In this document: positions 39,142 through 48,283 of the stretch, one piece after another
How positions within the stretch are numbered: position 1 is the first letter of the stretch
Layout: the number at the start of each line of letters is the position of its first letter
NCBI GenBank assembly: GCA_016927315.1
Contig: JAFGMV010000095.1
Coordinates: forward strand, 1 to 64,000
Direction: 5' to 3'
Length of the DNA: 64,000 nucleotides
DNA from: Anaerolineales bacterium
GTDB lineage: Bacteria; Chloroflexota; Anaerolineae; Anaerolineales; Villigracilaceae
Notes under the pieces: model-generated
Databases searched by the model: none
Told to the model about the DNA's origin: nothing
The model's input: only the letters and a program-made list of their open reading frames with translations
Position numbers and translations under genes: made by a program

Positions 39142-40614
39142 TTACGGGTTTTCCGCTTTCTCGATCGCCACCGCCAGCGCCCTGGCTTTGTTGAGCGTCT
39201 CCTGGTATTCCTTTTCAGGGTCCGAGTCGGCCACCACACCGGCGCCGGCCTGGACACTGACGGTCTCACCGCGCATGACCAGGGTGCGGATCGCAATGCA
39301 GGTATCCATGGATCCGTCGAAGGAAAAATAGCCGACCGCACCGGCATACGGGCCGCGAGGATCGGTTTCCAGGTCGTGGATGATCTGCATGGCGCGGATC
39401 TTGGGCGCCCCGCTGACAGTCCCGGCCGGGAAGGTGGCCGCCAGCAGGTCGAAGGCATCGTATTCGGGCTTCAGGATACCCCTGGTATTCGATACGATGT
39501 GCATAACATGCGAGTAGCGTTCGATGACCATCTGTTCAGAGACATGCACGCTGCCGTAGTCGCACACCCGGCCGAGGTCATTGCGGGCCAGGTCGACCAG
39601 CATGACATGCTCGGCGCGTTCCTTGGGGTCATCCAGCAGTTCCTTTTCCAGCCGGGCGTCTTCGGCTTCGGTCTGGCCCCGGGGGCGCGTCCCGGCAATT
39701 GGGCGCAGGGTGGCAGCCCCATCTTCCAGCCGGACATGGATTTCAGGCGAGGCGCCAATCAGGTGCAGGTCCGGGTATCCGGCCAGGCCGTCAAAGTCGA
39801 AATAGAACATGTACGGGGACGGGTTCATCCGCCGCAGGGCCCGGTAGATGCTGAACGCAGATGCGCTGGTCTGGCGTTCAAGACGCTGGGAGGGCACTAC
39901 CTGGAAGATATCCCCGGCGGCGATGTGTTCCTTGGCGGTTGAGACCGCCTGCATGTATTGTTCCCGGGTCATATTGGATTTCAATTCACCCGGGCGGGTA
40001 TGCCGGTTGGGATTGTTCTGAGCGGGGATGGGTCTGTCCAGCCGCGCCTGGATCAGGTCCAGGCGCCTCTGGCCTTCGGCCCGGGCTTCCTCTTCCGCTC
40101 CCGCGCCGTTGACCGGTACATTGGCGATCAGCAGCAGGCGGCCGTAAGCATGGTCGAAGGCGATCAGGGTATCTGCCAGCAGGAAGATCGCTTCCGGCAG
40201 GTCTGGGTGGGGGTGGACCGGGACGGTGGGTTCGAAGCTGTGGATCATCTCATACGCGCAGTAACCGACCAGGCCGCCGGTGAAACGCGGCAGCCCGGGT
40301 ACATCCAGCGGGGTGTAGTGTTCCATGACCTCCCGCAGGGCTTCAAGCGGACTTGCGCCGTCCAGGTCCGTAACGGTCACACCCCGGGGGCTGCGCTGCT
40401 CAAGCCGCTCACCCTTCAGGACATAGGACTGACTGGGGTTGATACCGATAAACGAGTAGCGGGCCAGGTGCTCCCCGCCGCTGACGCTTTCCAGCAGGAA
40501 GGAAGGACCTTCCCCGGCCAGTTTCAGGTAAGCCGACACGGGGGTCTCCAGGTCTGCGGAGAGTTCAAGCACGACCGGCAGCAGGTTGGGTCTGGTTTGG
40601 GTTTGTGTGATCAT
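39142..40614 (-). CDS. trpE: Anthranilate synthase component I
   Basis: TrpE makes anthranilate from chorismate with ammonia from TrpG. The 490-aa product has the N-terminal LLES...RYSFIG tryptophan-binding region, where feedback inhibition normally acts, then [21 protein letters not shown], the [11 protein letters not shown] block, and [15 protein letters not shown] plus [14 protein letters not shown] near the end. GAGGAAAA precedes ATG 40614. It heads the biosynthetic genes, after an ATPase gene and the T-box. Confidence 0.96.
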
Positions 40615-40692
40615 AAAATTTTCCTCATCTCAGCGCGAGCGCGGCTGAAAGCCGGTGCGGCATTCTCCCTGCTTTAAGAACGTGTCCTTTGC

Positions 40693-40736
40693 AAGGAGTC
40701 TGCTTCGACCTGCCTGGCAGGTCTTCGCAGTGACAG
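40693..40736. repeat. Dispersed palindromic repeat, copy between the ATPase gene and trpE
   Basis: The plus-strand sequence starts AAGGAGTCTGCTTCG and ends TCGCAGTGACAG, enclosing the perfect palindrome GACCTGCCTGGCAGGTC. This is the reverse orientation of the ATTGCGAG...CAATCTCC family. No T-run follows, so it is unlikely to stop transcription into trpE. Confidence 0.6.
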
Positions 40737-40739
40737 CAG

Positions 40740-41456
40740 CTACAAATATTTCTCCGGTTCATTCAAAAACTGTTTGTAGATCTGGTAATGTTCTGTCTCT
40801 TGATATTCAACCGCTTCAACCGGGATTTTGTCGAAGCTGTAGATGCACGCCCCGGGACAGGCTAACAGGATCGGTGAATGGGTGATCATAATGAATTGTG
40901 CGTGGCCGGCCTGGCTGTTTTCTTTCAGGATCTTCAACAATTCCAGCTGGCTGCCGGGCGAGAGGGCTGTTTCGGGTTCGTCCAGCAGGTACAATCCTTC
41001 GATTTTGTAGCGGCTGCGGAAGAAGGACATCAGCGACTGCCCGTGAGATTGGGTCACCAGGGATTTCCCGCCAAAGTATTTCAACTGGCCGGGATCATTG
41101 GCGGCCCACTCGTCCAGGAAGTAAGAAAAATCTTTGAAGACTTCCGAGCCGAAGAAGGAACCCGGGACACTGCGGTCGGCCCATTCGATCGAGAGATAGT
41201 AGGGCAGCTGGCCTTCATAGCGGTTGACCTGGAAGCGCCGCCCCTCGGGCACTCGCCAGATATGGATGCCGCATTTCTGGGCCAGGGCTTCCAGCAGGGT
41301 CGATTTGCCGCTGCCGTTGCTGCCGACGAAGATTGTGACCGGGGTTTCGAATTTGACCATCTCGGTCTGCTGGAAGACCGGCAGGCAGAACGGGTAATGC
41401 TCCCGGGTGGGGTACCGGTCGCTCTTCAGGGATACACTTTTGAGGTGGATTGTCAT
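40740..41456 (-). CDS. AAA-type ATPase (COG3910-like)
   Basis: The 238-aa protein shows an ABC/SMC-like ATPase: Walker A GSNGSGKSTLLEAL, Walker B LYLLDEPETALSP with the catalytic Glu, and the switch MITHSPILLACP. The insert between the Walker motifs is short, so there is no coiled coil. Such small AAA proteins are common, and their role is unsettled. It lies directly after the T-box leader and before trpE on the same strand, so it appears to be the first gene of a T-box-controlled transcript. ATG 41456 gives the natural N-terminus MTIHLKSVSLK. Confidence 0.8.
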   Translation of the reverse strand: MTIHLKSVSLKSDRYPTREHYPFCLPVFQQTEMVKFETPVTIFVGSNGSGKSTLLEALAQKCGIHIWRVPEGRRFQVNRYEGQLPYYLSIEWADRSVPGSFFGSEVFKDFSYFLDEWAANDPGQLKYFGGKSLVTQSHGQSLMSFFRSRYKIEGLYLLDEPETALSPGSQLELLKILKENSQAGHAQFIMITHSPILLACPGACIYSFDKIPVEAVEYQETEHYQIYKQFLNEPEKYL

Positions 41457-41588
41457 GATTATTCTCTTTTCTTGTGCGGCTTTCCTGGTCTCAATCAGGA
41501 AAGCTTTCGCACCACCAGGTACACAAAGGAGCACCAGGAGAAAATCTTCGTAAACCTTCGGGGGCTTTGTGGTAAATTGTCAATATAC

Positions 41589-41918
41589 AAAAACACAGCA
41601 TTCATCCACAAATGGGACGAACGCTGTGTCCGTGGTGCCACCCAACTTAGGCCGGCGATAGCCTTTAATCAAAAAACCCGTTGATGATGCAACGGGTCAG
41701 CCAGCCTCACTCTTTTCAGGTACGGTCTGTATCAGACGTATACCCTCGTCCTGTAACGGGGACTTCCCGGCGCAGGCTACTTGATGATTCTTTCGCCCTG
41801 CAACTCCAAGGTCCATTCTGCGCTGTCGTTTCGGGCAGGACTTTCACCACATGCTGCCTGCTCTCTGGGCCGTCGTACGGCGCATACTCGTCCTCTTCGA
41901 CGTTTTTATCTTATATTG
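41589..41918 (-). ncRNA. T-box leader, probably tRNA-Trp specific
   Basis: On the minus strand the core GGGTGGCACCACGG (41643-41630) is the T-box sequence, and the distal stem I features AGAGAG and GGTGAAAG are upstream (41864 and 41848 area). The acceptor-binding bases TGGC pair with a tRNA ending GCCA, which is the end expected of tRNA-Trp. A UGG specifier candidate stands at 41808-41806, followed by A. The stem 41629-41614 / 41607-41593 followed by TTTTT is the intrinsic terminator competing with the antiterminator. A second hairpin with a T-run lies at 41697-41671. Downstream are the ATPase and the complete trp unit. The exact stem I pairing was not folded. Confidence 0.85.
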
Positions 41919-43590: not shown

Positions 43591-43977
43591 TTACGATTTA
43601 TTTCGGGTGAATTCCAGCTTCTTAAGTGCTTCCCGGAACAACCGGCCGGGTTTGAATTTTACGTTGACCCGTTGAATGAAGGAGGCGTTGACTTCTACCT
43701 GCTCGTGTGCGCCTTTGACGCTGGCCGTCAGGCGGAGAGCGCCCAGTTCCCCCAGTTCGACGATATACCCTTGCGCCAGTTCTTGCGGGATCACGGTCAA
43801 CAGCGCTTCCAGGGTGGCCAGGGCATCAGCGCTGCTGACGGTCGAGATATAGCTGATCCGTTCAGCCAGCCTGCGGAAATCCGCCCGGCCGCGGCTTTTG
43901 AGGATCGGATAGTATTTTGGTGGGGCTTCCAGATCTTGGGGGTTCCTCTTGGGGACAATCGTATATTGTACAGCCAT
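43591..43977 (-). CDS. HU-related DNA-binding protein
   Basis: ATG 43977 (AGGAAGGA upstream) gives a 128-aa protein beginning MAVQYTIVPKRNPQDL. The pattern PPKYYPILKSRGRADFRRLAERI, then STVSSADALATLEAL and GYIVELGELGALRLTAS, follows the HU-related family best known from Bacteroidetes, which shares the HU core with an extra N-terminal strand. It should bind DNA without strong sequence preference. It ends with a short basic tail. A palindrome AAAAGATGC/GCATCTTTT at 43402-43419, followed by T residues on the minus strand, could end its transcript. The rest of 43326-43590 holds nothing else I can support. Confidence 0.75.
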   Translation of the reverse strand: MAVQYTIVPKRNPQDLEAPPKYYPILKSRGRADFRRLAERISYISTVSSADALATLEALLTVIPQELAQGYIVELGELGALRLTASVKGAHEQVEVNASFIQRVNVKFKPGRLFREALKKLEFTRNKS

Positions 43978-44071
43978 GTTTTTTTCCTTCCTGTTTGCTG
44001 TCTGTATGTGGGGGAGTATACTGCAAATTGGGGATATGTCCAGAGGCCGTTCAAGGATGAGAGAATGAAGG

Positions 44072-44112
44072 AAGAAGGTGACAGTCACTTTTGAAGCGGC
44101 CGTCACCTTCTT
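44072..44112. repeat. Hairpin element, copy 2 (GACAGTCAC...TGAAG type)
   Basis: AAGAAGGTGAC (44072-44082) pairs with GTCACCTTCTT (44102-44112). Its inner 28 nt (44080-44107) align with 7964-7991. Confidence 0.55.
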
Positions 44113-44222
44113 GGATGCGGGGACAAGGCATGCCGCGTCCCAACACATATTTTGGACGTGGGAAAATGGGTTTATCTCCCCTATGTCTTGCTTTTTCGCG
44201 AGCCTTTATGAATCCGGCTTTA

Positions 44223-44912
44223 CTACCAATTGCGGGGAATCACCCACGCGTCAAAGCCTTTCAGGTCCGTGATCCGGGCGGGGTCGAAGGTCTCAGCGGT
44301 CTTGCCGACGCTGATGACATTGTCCAGGCGCAGAGAGATGGGGCGCCGGCCTTTCTCCGAATAGCACCACAGGTAATCATAAACACTACTGTCCGTTGAT
44401 TCCCCGGGTTTGATATCCAGCGGGATGGCGAAGTAGTTCTCAACCTGGTCGCCTTTGACGCTGCGGTAGCGAATGAATATCTTTTCCTTGTTCTGGATGG
44501 CCTGGGTTACCAGTTCGACATTACGGTCCACGTTAAGCCGGACGGCTTTTTCGAGCGCAGACTGGACCTCCTGTTCGTTTTTAGCGTTCAGTACTTCCTG
44601 GTTGACCTCCTGTGCGATCTTCGGATTGTCGGTCAGTGCGCCCACTTCTGAGATGGTATCGGCCTTCTTCTGGTCCAGTTTGGCTGTGATGCCTTCCTTG
44701 GAGAACTGCAGTTCCGACAGGCGGTCAACGGCCAGCAGCAGCAGGCTGGCGATGGCCACGATCCCGATGATCCAGACGCGGTTGGTTGGGATATCCTTGT
44801 CCCCGCCCATGAGGACCTGGTACAGGGTGAAGGCATATGTACCAAAGACCAGATACTTCAGAATGGTAGAGGCCAGATTCTTTGAGTTCGGTTGATTGTC
44901 AGACGATTTCAT
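44223..44912 (-). CDS. Two-helix membrane protein with WYL-like C-terminal domain
   Basis: The product (229 aa) has an N-terminal pair of membrane helices (about residues 14-33 and 46-66), a helical middle (about 70-150) with KADTISEVGALTD and repeated Glu/Gln, and a C-terminal domain (about 150-225). That domain, IFIRYRSVKGDQVENYF followed by YLWCYSEKGRRPISLRLDNVISV, resembles the WYL ligand-sensing domain. WYL domains often occur in regulators of defence systems, but here the anchor is a membrane hairpin rather than a DNA-binding domain. The gene is divergent from the helicase gene, with a 224-nt space between starts. ATG 44912 follows AAGGATACGAT; 44954 is an alternative. The match is a judgement from motifs and is not certain. 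Confidence 0.55.
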   Translation of the reverse strand: MKSSDNQPNSKNLASTILKYLVFGTYAFTLYQVLMGGDKDIPTNRVWIIGIVAIASLLLLAVDRLSELQFSKEGITAKLDQKKADTISEVGALTDNPKIAQEVNQEVLNAKNEQEVQSALEKAVRLNVDRNVELVTQAIQNKEKIFIRYRSVKGDQVENYFAIPLDIKPGESTDSSVYDYLWCYSEKGRRPISLRLDNVISVGKTAETFDPARITDLKGFDAWVIPRNW

Positions 44913-45050
44913 ATCGTATCCTTTGCACACCAGATCGGATATTGTTTCATTCATTATACGATATTCTTTCATGATGAGGTTGGATCGGGATGGCTGCTTT
45001 TGATATTTAGGCCGGCAGGGGAAAAGGGATCGAGGAGAGAAGACAGCAGT

Positions 45051-45078
45051 TTGATATGGAGGCAATTTATGCAATAAT
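45051..45078 (+). promoter_or_regulatory. Possible promoter of the helicase gene
   Basis: TTGATA (45051-45056) and AATAAT (45073-45078) are 16 nt apart. They lie between the divergent membrane-protein and helicase genes. Confidence 0.45.
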
Positions 45079-45136
45079 GATATTGAAACCCGGCAGAAAA
45101 TTATTGTGCCTGCTTATGCCGGGCCAGGAGGGCCGC

Positions 45137-48100
45137 ATGACCGTTCGTACACCGGATGAAACCTTTGATCTAGAGCAATTTCTGGAGCAACTCCCATTAT
45201 GGGAGCCGCAGCGTGCCTCTGTTGAGTGTATGCGTAATTACATTTGGGCTTACCAGGGCGGCGAGGTGACAGAGTCTGCAATGGTTCATATGCCCACCGG
45301 AAGCGGTAAGACAGGCGTTATTGCAACCCTGGCGCGTTTTCTCGAAGAGGTTGGTTGTGTTCTGGTCTTGACTCCCCGCGTGGCACTAAGGGAGCAATTA
45401 TTTCGGGATATCGATCACAGGTTTTATGAGCACCTTGATCCTTCACCGGATATTGAAAAATTGCCAAAGGACGTTGTCCAGGTTAAAAGCCGGGAAAGGG
45501 TTCTGGATCTTGAAAATATCGATGCGACCGTTTTAATCTCTACGATCCAGATGATTTCGAATATGAGTAAAGATACTCGCAATGGAAAGGAATGGGATAC
45601 ACTGCTTGCGCATGTATCCCTGGTGATCATTGATGAGGGTCATTGTGAACCCGCTTCATTCTGGAGTACGTGTATTCGTTCTTTTAAAACACCCAAGATA
45701 ATTTTTACAGCCACTCCATTTAGGAACGACCTGAAATATTTTGATATAAACACTGACTACCTATATAGTTATACCTTTCACCATGCCCTGGAAGACCGTA
45801 TTTTGAGAGAGGTAGATTTTATCGAGATGAAAAGGACAAAAGATCCTGAAAAATTCATTGATCAGCTGCTTGATTTTTATGACAGAAAATTCAGGGGAGA
45901 GGAAGAAAACCAGGTGCGCGTGATCATTCGGTGTGATTCGCGCGAAGAAATTCGACAAATTAAACACATCCTTGTCGAGCGAAGGCGAAGTTGTATCGCC
46001 ATCCATGAGACATTTACGGATGACGATGATGGATATGAACGCAGACAGGTTCCGGAAATATCAAAAGAAAAGGATATTGAGGCCACTTTCTGGATTCACC
46101 AATTCAAACTCCAGGAGGGGATCGATGATTCCAGATTCCAGGTGCTGGCGCCATTCGACCCGATCCGGGACGGGCGGGCTTTAATCCAGCAGATCGGACG
46201 TATTATCCGCAATCCCACCCGTGACCCGGATGCGAAGGGGTATGTATTGGATTTTTCGGGTGGTCAACAGCAGGATATCTGGCGCGGGTTCGTTAACTAT
46301 GACAAAGCTTTGACCAGATACGGAATCAAAGCCTTTAAAATGGCGACAGGCTCCGGGTGGTTAACGGAATTGTTTGAAGCCCAACCGCTGCTTACTTATA
46401 TCGAACATCGTTTTCGTCGTCCGGTGGATATCGAGAAAATAAATCCAGGAACAGACCTGGACCTGCCGCGGATGGTCAACCTGCGGTATGTTGAGCGTGG
46501 TTTTCGTCTCGCAAATTTGTGTGCTCATCTGGAAAAGGAGTTCAAAGATAACGATCGCACCTTTAGCCGTTATGAGGTTGGTGAAGCCATCATTTATGTT
46601 TATGTAACCATCAACAATTCGCCTTTATTGACCAGGCATTATTTCCTGGAGCCAAAATTAGGGGTTACCTATCTGCGCCTGATGAAAAAACCCGCTGCGG
46701 GTAATGAAAAACAAATCCTGGCCTTTTATGACAGCTCTGGCCATCTCCCTATTCGATATGATGAAGTCCGGTTGGGCAGCGCAGTCGAGTCCATCAGGCT
46801 TAAACGGCTTTTTAGCAATGATTATAGAAGTTGTTTAACCAATGTGTCCCTGCGGAATTCAAACCTGGGAACAATTGCCATTCGCGCCCGTACGATCTCA
46901 GCGGCGGATATTTACGATACCGTCTCTGCCTTTGATGATCATGCCCAGATTTGCAGTAATGTAACCGGGTACAGCTGGGAGCAGGAGGATTTCGAAAAAA
47001 CCGGCAGGTCATTACGTCGTTACCTGGGTTTTCAAAGAGGCCGAATTTCTGAAGCCAGTGAACGCTGCGGGTTATCTGGATATGAAAGCTGGCTTTCTAC
47101 TGTTGCAGGCACAATTCGTGCTCCCAGGAATTTGCTCCCAGCCTTTCGCCGTTATGCCATTGATGCGGCAGATGTCGCCGATGGTACACCCAGACATATT
47201 TTATTGGACTTGTTAGAAGTCCAGGATTTTTTCGAAACCGTTGGGAAGAAAAAAGAGCCAATGATGATCCAGGACGTGTCCTGTGAGGTGACCAAAGGAT
47301 CGTTTGAAGTCATTGCAAATCGAAAAAAGTGTAAAGTGCATGTTGGTTATGATAAAAAGCGCCGACGATATCATCTGGATTCCAAGGATATTGATGAACT
47401 GTATCGAAACATCCGGGAGAATGATGATCGTGGGTTGATCACATACCTCAATCAGGAACAATCGTTCCGGATCATTCCCAATACCGAAGAAGTAATTTAC
47501 ACAATGGGTGAGTTTTACCAACCGATGTTCAAGGTTGGTAAAAGTTTTGACCCGCACTTGTTTGAAGTCAGTCAGGTGCTGGTTCCGGCGCCGATATTGG
47601 CTGAGGTCGCCAGTGAGAAAGGAGAACCGCCTGATCCATCCGGATGGGCCAGGGACACTTTATTTGGCGTGATCGACAACCTGGGCAAACCTTTCAAAGA
47701 GGAAGACCAGCTTAAATTCGAAACAATTGACAATCAGGGGAATAAAGCTTTTCTTCATGAGTACTTTGGCGAACCGGATATTGTTGTCTGTGATGATATG
47801 GGCACGGAAGCGGCAGATTTCATCCTGGCCGATTCGCAGAAGCGGCGGGTGGTATTTATTCATGCCAAAGGAAACCCAAAATTAAAGCCTGCATCAGCGA
47901 GTGCACTGCAGGATGTGGTCGGACAGGCGACCAAGAATATCAATTTTCTGGGGATGTTCAACGAGACACTGCCCAAGAACCTGGGGCGTTGGGATGAGCC
48001 CTGGATGGGTCCCAAGGGTACCTGCGTCAACAAGCGGATTCGGGCTGGGGCGGCCACGGGAAAAGAAACCTGGGAGCAGATCCAGAAGATCATCCATCAC

Positions 48101-48283
48101 CCGCTGGCCGACCGGGAAGTCTGGTTGTTCATGGGGAAGACCCTGTCGAAGAGCAGGTTTGAAGAATTACTAAAGATGTCGCCTCCGGGAGCGGAAGCTC
48201 TCCAGGGCGCTTACCTGCTGTTTGCTACGATGACCAACGTGGCCTCTGTAGGCGCCAAGCTGCGAGTGTTCTGTTATCCATAA
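45137..48283 (+). CDS. Large SF2 helicase with possible C-terminal nuclease-like domain
   Basis: The 1048-aa protein has the SF2 motor in residues about 20-380: Walker A TGSGKT (54-59), a DEGH box (166-169), motif III FTATPF, motif V FKLQEGID, and motif VI QQIGRIIRN (351-359). The remaining 650 residues are not a standard helicase extension. Near the end, EPDIVVCDDMGTEAADF...VVFIHAKGN (to about 911) has the layout of a PD-(D/E)XK nuclease core, but with HxK instead of ExK, so activity is uncertain. ATG 45137 is preceded by AGGAGGG. Base composition is AT-richer than in the genes before 43000. It resembles type III restriction or defence helicases, but no restriction or methylase partner is visible. 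Confidence 0.75.
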   Translation: MTVRTPDETFDLEQFLEQLPLWEPQRASVECMRNYIWAYQGGEVTESAMVHMPTGSGKTGVIATLARFLEEVGCVLVLTPRVALREQLFRDIDHRFYEHLDPSPDIEKLPKDVVQVKSRERVLDLENIDATVLISTIQMISNMSKDTRNGKEWDTLLAHVSLVIIDEGHCEPASFWSTCIRSFKTPKIIFTATPFRNDLKYFDINTDYLYSYTFHHALEDRILREVDFIEMKRTKDPEKFIDQLLDFYDRKFRGEEENQVRVIIRCDSREEIRQIKHILVERRRSCIAIHETFTDDDDGYERRQVPEISKEKDIEATFWIHQFKLQEGIDDSRFQVLAPFDPIRDGRALIQQIGRIIRNPTRDPDAKGYVLDFSGGQQQDIWRGFVNYDKALTRYGIKAFKMATGSGWLTELFEAQPLLTYIEHRFRRPVDIEKINPGTDLDLPRMVNLRYVERGFRLANLCAHLEKEFKDNDRTFSRYEVGEAIIYVYVTINNSPLLTRHYFLEPKLGVTYLRLMKKPAAGNEKQILAFYDSSGHLPIRYDEVRLGSAVESIRLKRLFSNDYRSCLTNVSLRNSNLGTIAIRARTISAADIYDTVSAFDDHAQICSNVTGYSWEQEDFEKTGRSLRRYLGFQRGRISEASERCGLSGYESWLSTVAGTIRAPRNLLPAFRRYAIDAADVADGTPRHILLDLLEVQDFFETVGKKKEPMMIQDVSCEVTKGSFEVIANRKKCKVHVGYDKKRRRYHLDSKDIDELYRNIRENDDRGLITYLNQEQSFRIIPNTEEVIYTMGEFYQPMFKVGKSFDPHLFEVSQVLVPAPILAEVASEKGEPPDPSGWARDTLFGVIDNLGKPFKEEDQLKFETIDNQGNKAFLHEYFGEPDIVVCDDMGTEAADFILADSQKRRVVFIHAKGNPKLKPASASALQDVVGQATKNINFLGMFNETLPKNLGRWDEPWMGPKGTCVNKRIRAGAATGKETWEQIQKIIHHPLADREVWLFMGKTLSKSRFEELLKMSPPGAEALQGAYLLFATMTNVASVGAKLRVFCYP

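Follow-up and report, generated by a model that had tools for sequence, protein, structure and literature searches.

On a contig of an Anaerolineales bacterium (Chloroflexota), a gene for a long SF2 helicase lies beside a gene for a small WYL-like membrane protein, and the locus raises the question of whether the two make up one defence system or whether the helicase works without its neighbour. The window, meaning the whole stretch of 64,000 nucleotides that was analysed, had received a first-pass annotation that read the pair as a membrane-linked two-gene system, in a combination matching none known, and that named, among its checks, a profile search with the helicase C-terminus, co-occurrence of the two genes across genomes, and enrichment near known defence genes. 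As that annotation had it, two open reading frames are present on opposite strands; their transcription is divergent, and 224 bases separate the two starts. We conclude that the helicase gene is probably a horizontally acquired, single-gene defence candidate, its SF2 motor serving PD-(D/E)xK-like cutting of invading DNA. Coordinates of all features are collected in Table 1.

Table 1. Features of the helicase locus, in window coordinates, with the basis or remark for each
Feature	Position	Strand	Basis or remark
PDC-S71-family helicase-nuclease, 1048 aa	45137..48283	+	Whole ORF 45056-48283
SF2 DExH helicase core, residues ~11-404	45167..46348	+	Pfam ResIII 3.5e-17; fold Z 24-27; invariant columns
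Middle domain, residues ~440-663	46454..47125	+	Weak RdgC / CENP-L / CENP-N fold likeness
PD-(D/E)xK-like nuclease (predicted), residues ~822-1048	47600..48280	+	Predicted fold order; invariant residues; CdiA-CT likeness
TM/WYL-like protein, 229 aa, judged outside the system	44223..44912	-	AAAGGA Shine-Dalgarno

The best start of the helicase gene is the ATG at 45137, downstream of an AGGAGG Shine-Dalgarno sequence, and the length of 1048 residues first proposed is borne out. The motor is intact, with Walker A (GSGKT, residues 55-59), the DExH box (DEGH, 166-169), TATP (about 192-194) and the QxxGRxxR motif (QIGRIIR, ending at R358) following one another in the order expected of SF2 DExH helicases. 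In an alignment of 45 diverse family members, G55, G57, K58, D166-H169, A192-P194, Q351, G354, R355 and R358 are invariant. Pfam assigns residues 28-196 to ResIII/DEAD, structural comparison returns FANCM, RIG-I and RadD at the Z scores given in Table 1, and XPB, UvrB and RadD are among the profile matches. All this would suit a RadD-, XPB- or FANCM-like helicase with a housekeeping role in repair or recombination, equipped with an accessory nuclease; against this, the protein scores 18.9 bits where the NCBIfam RadD equivalog requires 720. It likewise falls below the cut-off of the NCBIfam HsdR subfamily (45.1 versus 284.55 bits).

The profile search with the helicase C-terminus identified a family. 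The PADLOC model PDC-S71 matches residues 564-1047 with an E-value of 2.3e-36, and 44 of the 45 aligned family members match it as well. PDC-S71 is a phage defence candidate awaiting test in PADLOC-DB 2.0.0, represented by a model of 589 positions that covers the C-terminal half alone. Judged by these profile matches, the helicase is a member of a widespread single-gene family already listed as a defence candidate, so that, for the helicase, the first impression of a combination without precedent has to be withdrawn. The PDC families derive from a guilt-by-embedding screen, and for the majority of those surveyed an experimental test is still pending (PMC12988326). In the literature searched we found no paper naming PDC-S71 or any of four E. 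coli protein accessions, no description of PDC-S71 as a helicase-nuclease, and no phage or nuclease assay on any family member.

Several lines of evidence bear on the nature of the C-terminal end. Within its last 230 residues, E827, K828, D887, E891, D894, F895, K911, Q930 and R967 are invariant across the 45 diverse sequences, and H909 is present in at least 90% of them. Two AlphaFold models are confident (pLDDT 91.9 for residues 395-1048, 88.3 for the whole protein), and the model of the whole protein shows the alpha-beta-beta-beta-alpha-beta order of a PD-(D/E)xK core: helices between 842 and 877, strands at 882-885, 895-899 and 904-911, a helix at 921-933 and a strand at 992-999. In this model D894 opens the second strand, H909-x-K911 closes the third, and Q930 falls in the helix that follows. 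The putative (D/E)xK site thus has its D894 and K911 invariant and its middle acid replaced by H909, with the invariant acids E827, D887 and E891 nearby. Other PD-(D/E)xK families tolerate different residues at the middle position. By VIA-align the last 200 residues resemble the CdiA-CT toxin structures 4zqu (Z 6.0 over 124/124) and 4g6u (Z 7.6 over 144), values below 8 that amount to middling structural support. A CdiA-CT domain has been described in a review as resembling type IIS restriction enzymes (PMC5422565). Foldseek with the C-terminal part returned nothing at E <= 0.001, its best match, to other folds, having an E-value of 0.02, and a profile of the C-terminal half searched against solved structures gave a chance match alone (E 0.49). 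We therefore regard the assignment of a PD-(D/E)xK-like nuclease with histidine for the usual glutamate, predicted from the model and from residue conservation, as well supported and not proved, since neither Z value reaches 8 and the Foldseek search by itself lacks significance. The nuclease-like end noticed in the first annotation is upheld to that degree.

Pfam recognizes no family in the middle domain, nor anywhere in the C-terminal part of the helicase. The likeness of the middle domain to RdgC, CENP-L and CENP-N (VIA-align Z 5.2-6.3) lies below the level at which such scores are trustworthy and serves as a lead only.

Relatives of the helicase are widespread and patchy. An alignment-based scan, in which each species was represented by a single genome, yielded 423 stretches that encode relatives; the 80 best of these 423 are nearly all collinear end to end and come from ten phyla, one Hodarchaeota metagenome-assembled genome included. 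A single-sequence pattern scan of genome contigs found no relatives, because its patterns were too specific. Seventeen records in a plasmid protein search cover at least 80% of the query, from hosts that include Mycobacterium, Bradyrhizobium, Sinorhizobium, Sulfitobacter, Paraburkholderia, Rhizobium, Escherichia and Klebsiella, among others. In E. coli, where WP_016239532 is a member, the gene is present in 19 of 5,426 complete genomes, both chromosomal and plasmid-borne; in several strains it occupies a variable region near ydeO-ydeT, and in another strain a different place. Nearer to the host, the family occurs in the window's genome only among 101 close relatives, and among 298 genomes of the class in two, the window's and one other (G358). 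A spread of 1/101, 2/298 and 19/5,426 is not a housekeeping pattern. Matches on viral contigs (58 loci) nearly all cover the helicase core only, and the family therefore does not look like a phage gene.

In a maximum-likelihood tree, the window protein groups with proteins from Herpetosiphon (54% identity) and from an Anaerolineales genome (51%); Planctomycetota and Myxococcota come next, with Fidelibacterota and the Hodarchaeota sequence nearby. Phylum labels change 18 times on this tree against a minimum of nine, a count from a quick tree that bins and paralogues may inflate. The excess suggests horizontal transfer of the helicase. The gene is AT-rich relative to those around it, with GC of 0.476 and GC3 of 0.50, while the TM/WYL-like gene (GC 0.52, GC3 0.67) has a GC3 like that of its surroundings. 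Flanking repeats that might mark an insertion do not go beyond short, chance-level ones, and there is no obvious defence island around the gene within the 64-kb window. The nearest relatives of the host fall in different genera, and the YegS-like gene in the flank is one of several paralogues that share about 30% identity. Rfam shows no RNA family at the helicase and TM/WYL locus, its sole match in the window being a T-box 3 kb away.

That T-box leader (RF00230, 102 bits; 41610-41909, minus strand) is followed immediately downstream by a gene for an AAA_21/AAA_15 ATPase (40740-41534). The same-strand genes after it resemble tryptophan biosynthesis genes, the ATPase gene and these together occupying 39142-41534 on the minus strand; it is unusual for an ATPase gene to separate a T-box from a trp operon. 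Next to the TM/WYL-like gene, at 43591-44148 on the minus strand, is a gene for an HU-HIG family DNA-binding protein (4.8e-29). This family is known mainly from Bacteroidota, and its presence in a Chloroflexota genome may reflect transfer.

The third check, for enrichment near known defence genes, gave a positive result at the relatives of the helicase. Among 110 genes adjoining relatives, 298 PADLOC models were matched, with E-values down to 0. The matches include type I and type IV restriction, PtuB, HamA, SduA, DrmMI and RT-UG10. Over all loci, the defence genes beside relatives represent type I, type IV, Hachiman, Shedu, DISARM, reverse-transcriptase systems, Avs4 and retrons. Pfam finds integrases, Mrr, HsdR and methylases beside relatives, and annotated neighbours at their loci include AbiV, SIR2, Avs4 and retron Ec78. 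In the control, the 51 other genes of the window, 13 weak models were matched (best 2e-17), mostly of ATPase type. Measured against this control, the family shows a genetic association with defence genes, an enrichment clear in kind and approximate in size because the control set is smaller than the neighbour set and comes from a single genome. With mobile elements and defence genes adjoining the relatives, and with the spread and the RadD score described above, a housekeeping role is improbable.

These neighbours vary from locus to locus. The commonest family, type I restriction-modification, is found at 5 of 75 loci, no family is recurrent, and none of the 80 relatives has a TM/WYL homologue in its flank, as expected of a stand-alone system. 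At 4 of the 75 loci (L039, L049, L051 and L057, all from alphaproteobacterial relatives), a homologous gene reading as a Tle1-like or DUF2235 hydrolase lies no more than three genes from the helicase and may be a separate island gene. The same survey bears on an alternative to a dedicated phage defence, in which the protein would be a restriction-like enzyme directed at plasmids or foreign DNA generally, lacking a methylase of its own, or an enzyme with an RNA substrate. Its ResIII/HsdR-like motor would fit the DNA-directed form, as would its presence on plasmids of several hosts, where genes for mobilisation and transposition adjoin it, and RIG-I-like helicases among the nearest folds would fit the RNA-directed one. 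We consider this unlikely, given that no methyltransferase recurs, that type I restriction-modification is so infrequent a neighbour, and that positive evidence for an RNA substrate is absent here.

The TM/WYL-like gene most likely encodes the 229-residue product starting at 44912 rather than the full 283-residue open reading frame. Two hydrophobic segments lie close to the N-terminus of the protein, which also contains a WYL-like domain, much as first described, although the domain scores 18.2 bits against a Pfam cut-off of 21.8 and reaches 4.8e-4 with a PADLOC WYL model. No helix-turn-helix family matches where an N-terminal winged helix-turn-helix might be sought; hydrophobic segments and a linker stand there instead. 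Four of the 298 class genomes have the family, giving three full-length relatives at 37-43% identity, all with two predicted hydrophobic segments, and the protein search found none on plasmids. The family (L160-L165) has a hydrophobic pair, a helical linker and a WYL-like domain ending in a conserved FDP...PRxW, without a winged helix. By eye, the genes around the three relatives read as metabolic or membrane genes. A profile built from the four proteins, run over 12,333 open reading frames from all loci, recovered those relatives and, besides them, a single WYL domain linked to a helicase of Cas3-like type. A 1239-residue frame at L021:2308-6027 (minus strand), in a relative of the host (G007), apparently joins a WYL regulator to a Cas3-like HD-helicase; it may be a real fusion or an artefact of assembly or frame.

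Ligand sensing by WYL domains is found in CRISPR and in other defence contexts. With the two genes adjacent and divergent here, and with PADLOC WYL models matching at 5e-4, the TM/WYL-like protein might be supposed to sense a ligand at the membrane and so control the helicase-nuclease. The distribution of the two families argues strongly the other way. A TM/WYL homologue lies within up to 8 kb of none of the best 80 of the 423 helicase relatives, a PDC-S71 search of the genomes holding the three TM/WYL relatives found no helicase, and the only genome among the 298 to have both families is the window's own. The genes thus do not occur together in other genomes, the outcome that the first-pass annotation had itself named as counting against the pair, and their base composition differs. 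The two-gene system was rejected for want of co-occurrence, and membrane control of the helicase is highly improbable. Since co-occurrence is lacking and GC3 is 0.50 versus 0.67, we read the adjacency as the insertion of a single gene: the helicase gene most likely arrived on its own and came to lie next to the TM/WYL-like gene, already resident there, and the pairing is coincidental. The TM/WYL-like family appears to be rare, lineage-specific and separate from the helicase.

For the single-gene defence candidate, the data directly support its family, patchy spread, the defence-gene setting of its relatives, intact motor motifs, a conserved nuclease-like site and the lack of a recurrent partner. 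Defence activity, a DNA substrate, a trigger and cutting are what we infer, and to that extent the early reading of a helicase with a nuclease-like C-terminal domain, probably for defence, was right. The protein would recognise or load on invading DNA, perhaps at a DNA end or on an intermediate of phage replication or recombination; the SF2 motor would translocate along it, and the C-terminal domain would degrade or cut the translocated DNA. Sensor, motor and nuclease would then share one chain, with the middle domain the likely place of substrate recognition, and the TM/WYL-like gene would be a resident of unrelated function. A more specific version is, on balance, doubtful: that PDC-S71 is an autonomous one-protein immune enzyme combining its SF2 motor with a DNA-binding middle domain like that of RdgC and a divergent PD-(D/E)xK nuclease of HxK type, so as to sense and destroy foreign replicating DNA without methylase, guide or partner. 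PDC-S71, until now a bare model name, becomes an enzyme open to experimental test, its motor and nuclease residues specified, in a family that spans Chloroflexota to an Asgard archaeon and includes clinical plasmids, and a spurious two-gene system is struck from the candidate list.

Among known systems, HamB of Hachiman is an SF2 defence helicase, and PADLOC HamB models match the motor of the window helicase (1e-5); the match ends inside the motor, and the C-terminal part differs. HamA (DUF1837), the other Hachiman component, has no match in the neighbouring genes, nor among the 51 window genes at 1e-10. Helicase-nuclease effectors of multi-gene defences such as Druantia III are reported to load on, translocate along and cut foreign DNA (PMC13192584). 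The comparison with DruE of Druantia III, reported as a helicase-nuclease effector that engages replication intermediates (PMC13192584), concerns manner of working only; the window helicase is a single gene, and no Druantia model is among its PADLOC matches. RadD (YejH) has the SF2 core in common with it (Z about 25 over 308-315 residues), but the solved RadD chains, at 559-574 residues, are about half as long, and RadD therefore lacks the large C-terminal part. The CdiA-CT toxins 4zqu and 4g6u are alike in fold to the last 200 residues, at a level possible from a common arrangement, and differ in function, with no sequence match to the helicase. The closest correspondence is with PDC-S71 itself, in whose full-length members an SF2 helicase precedes the part that the 589-position model matches.
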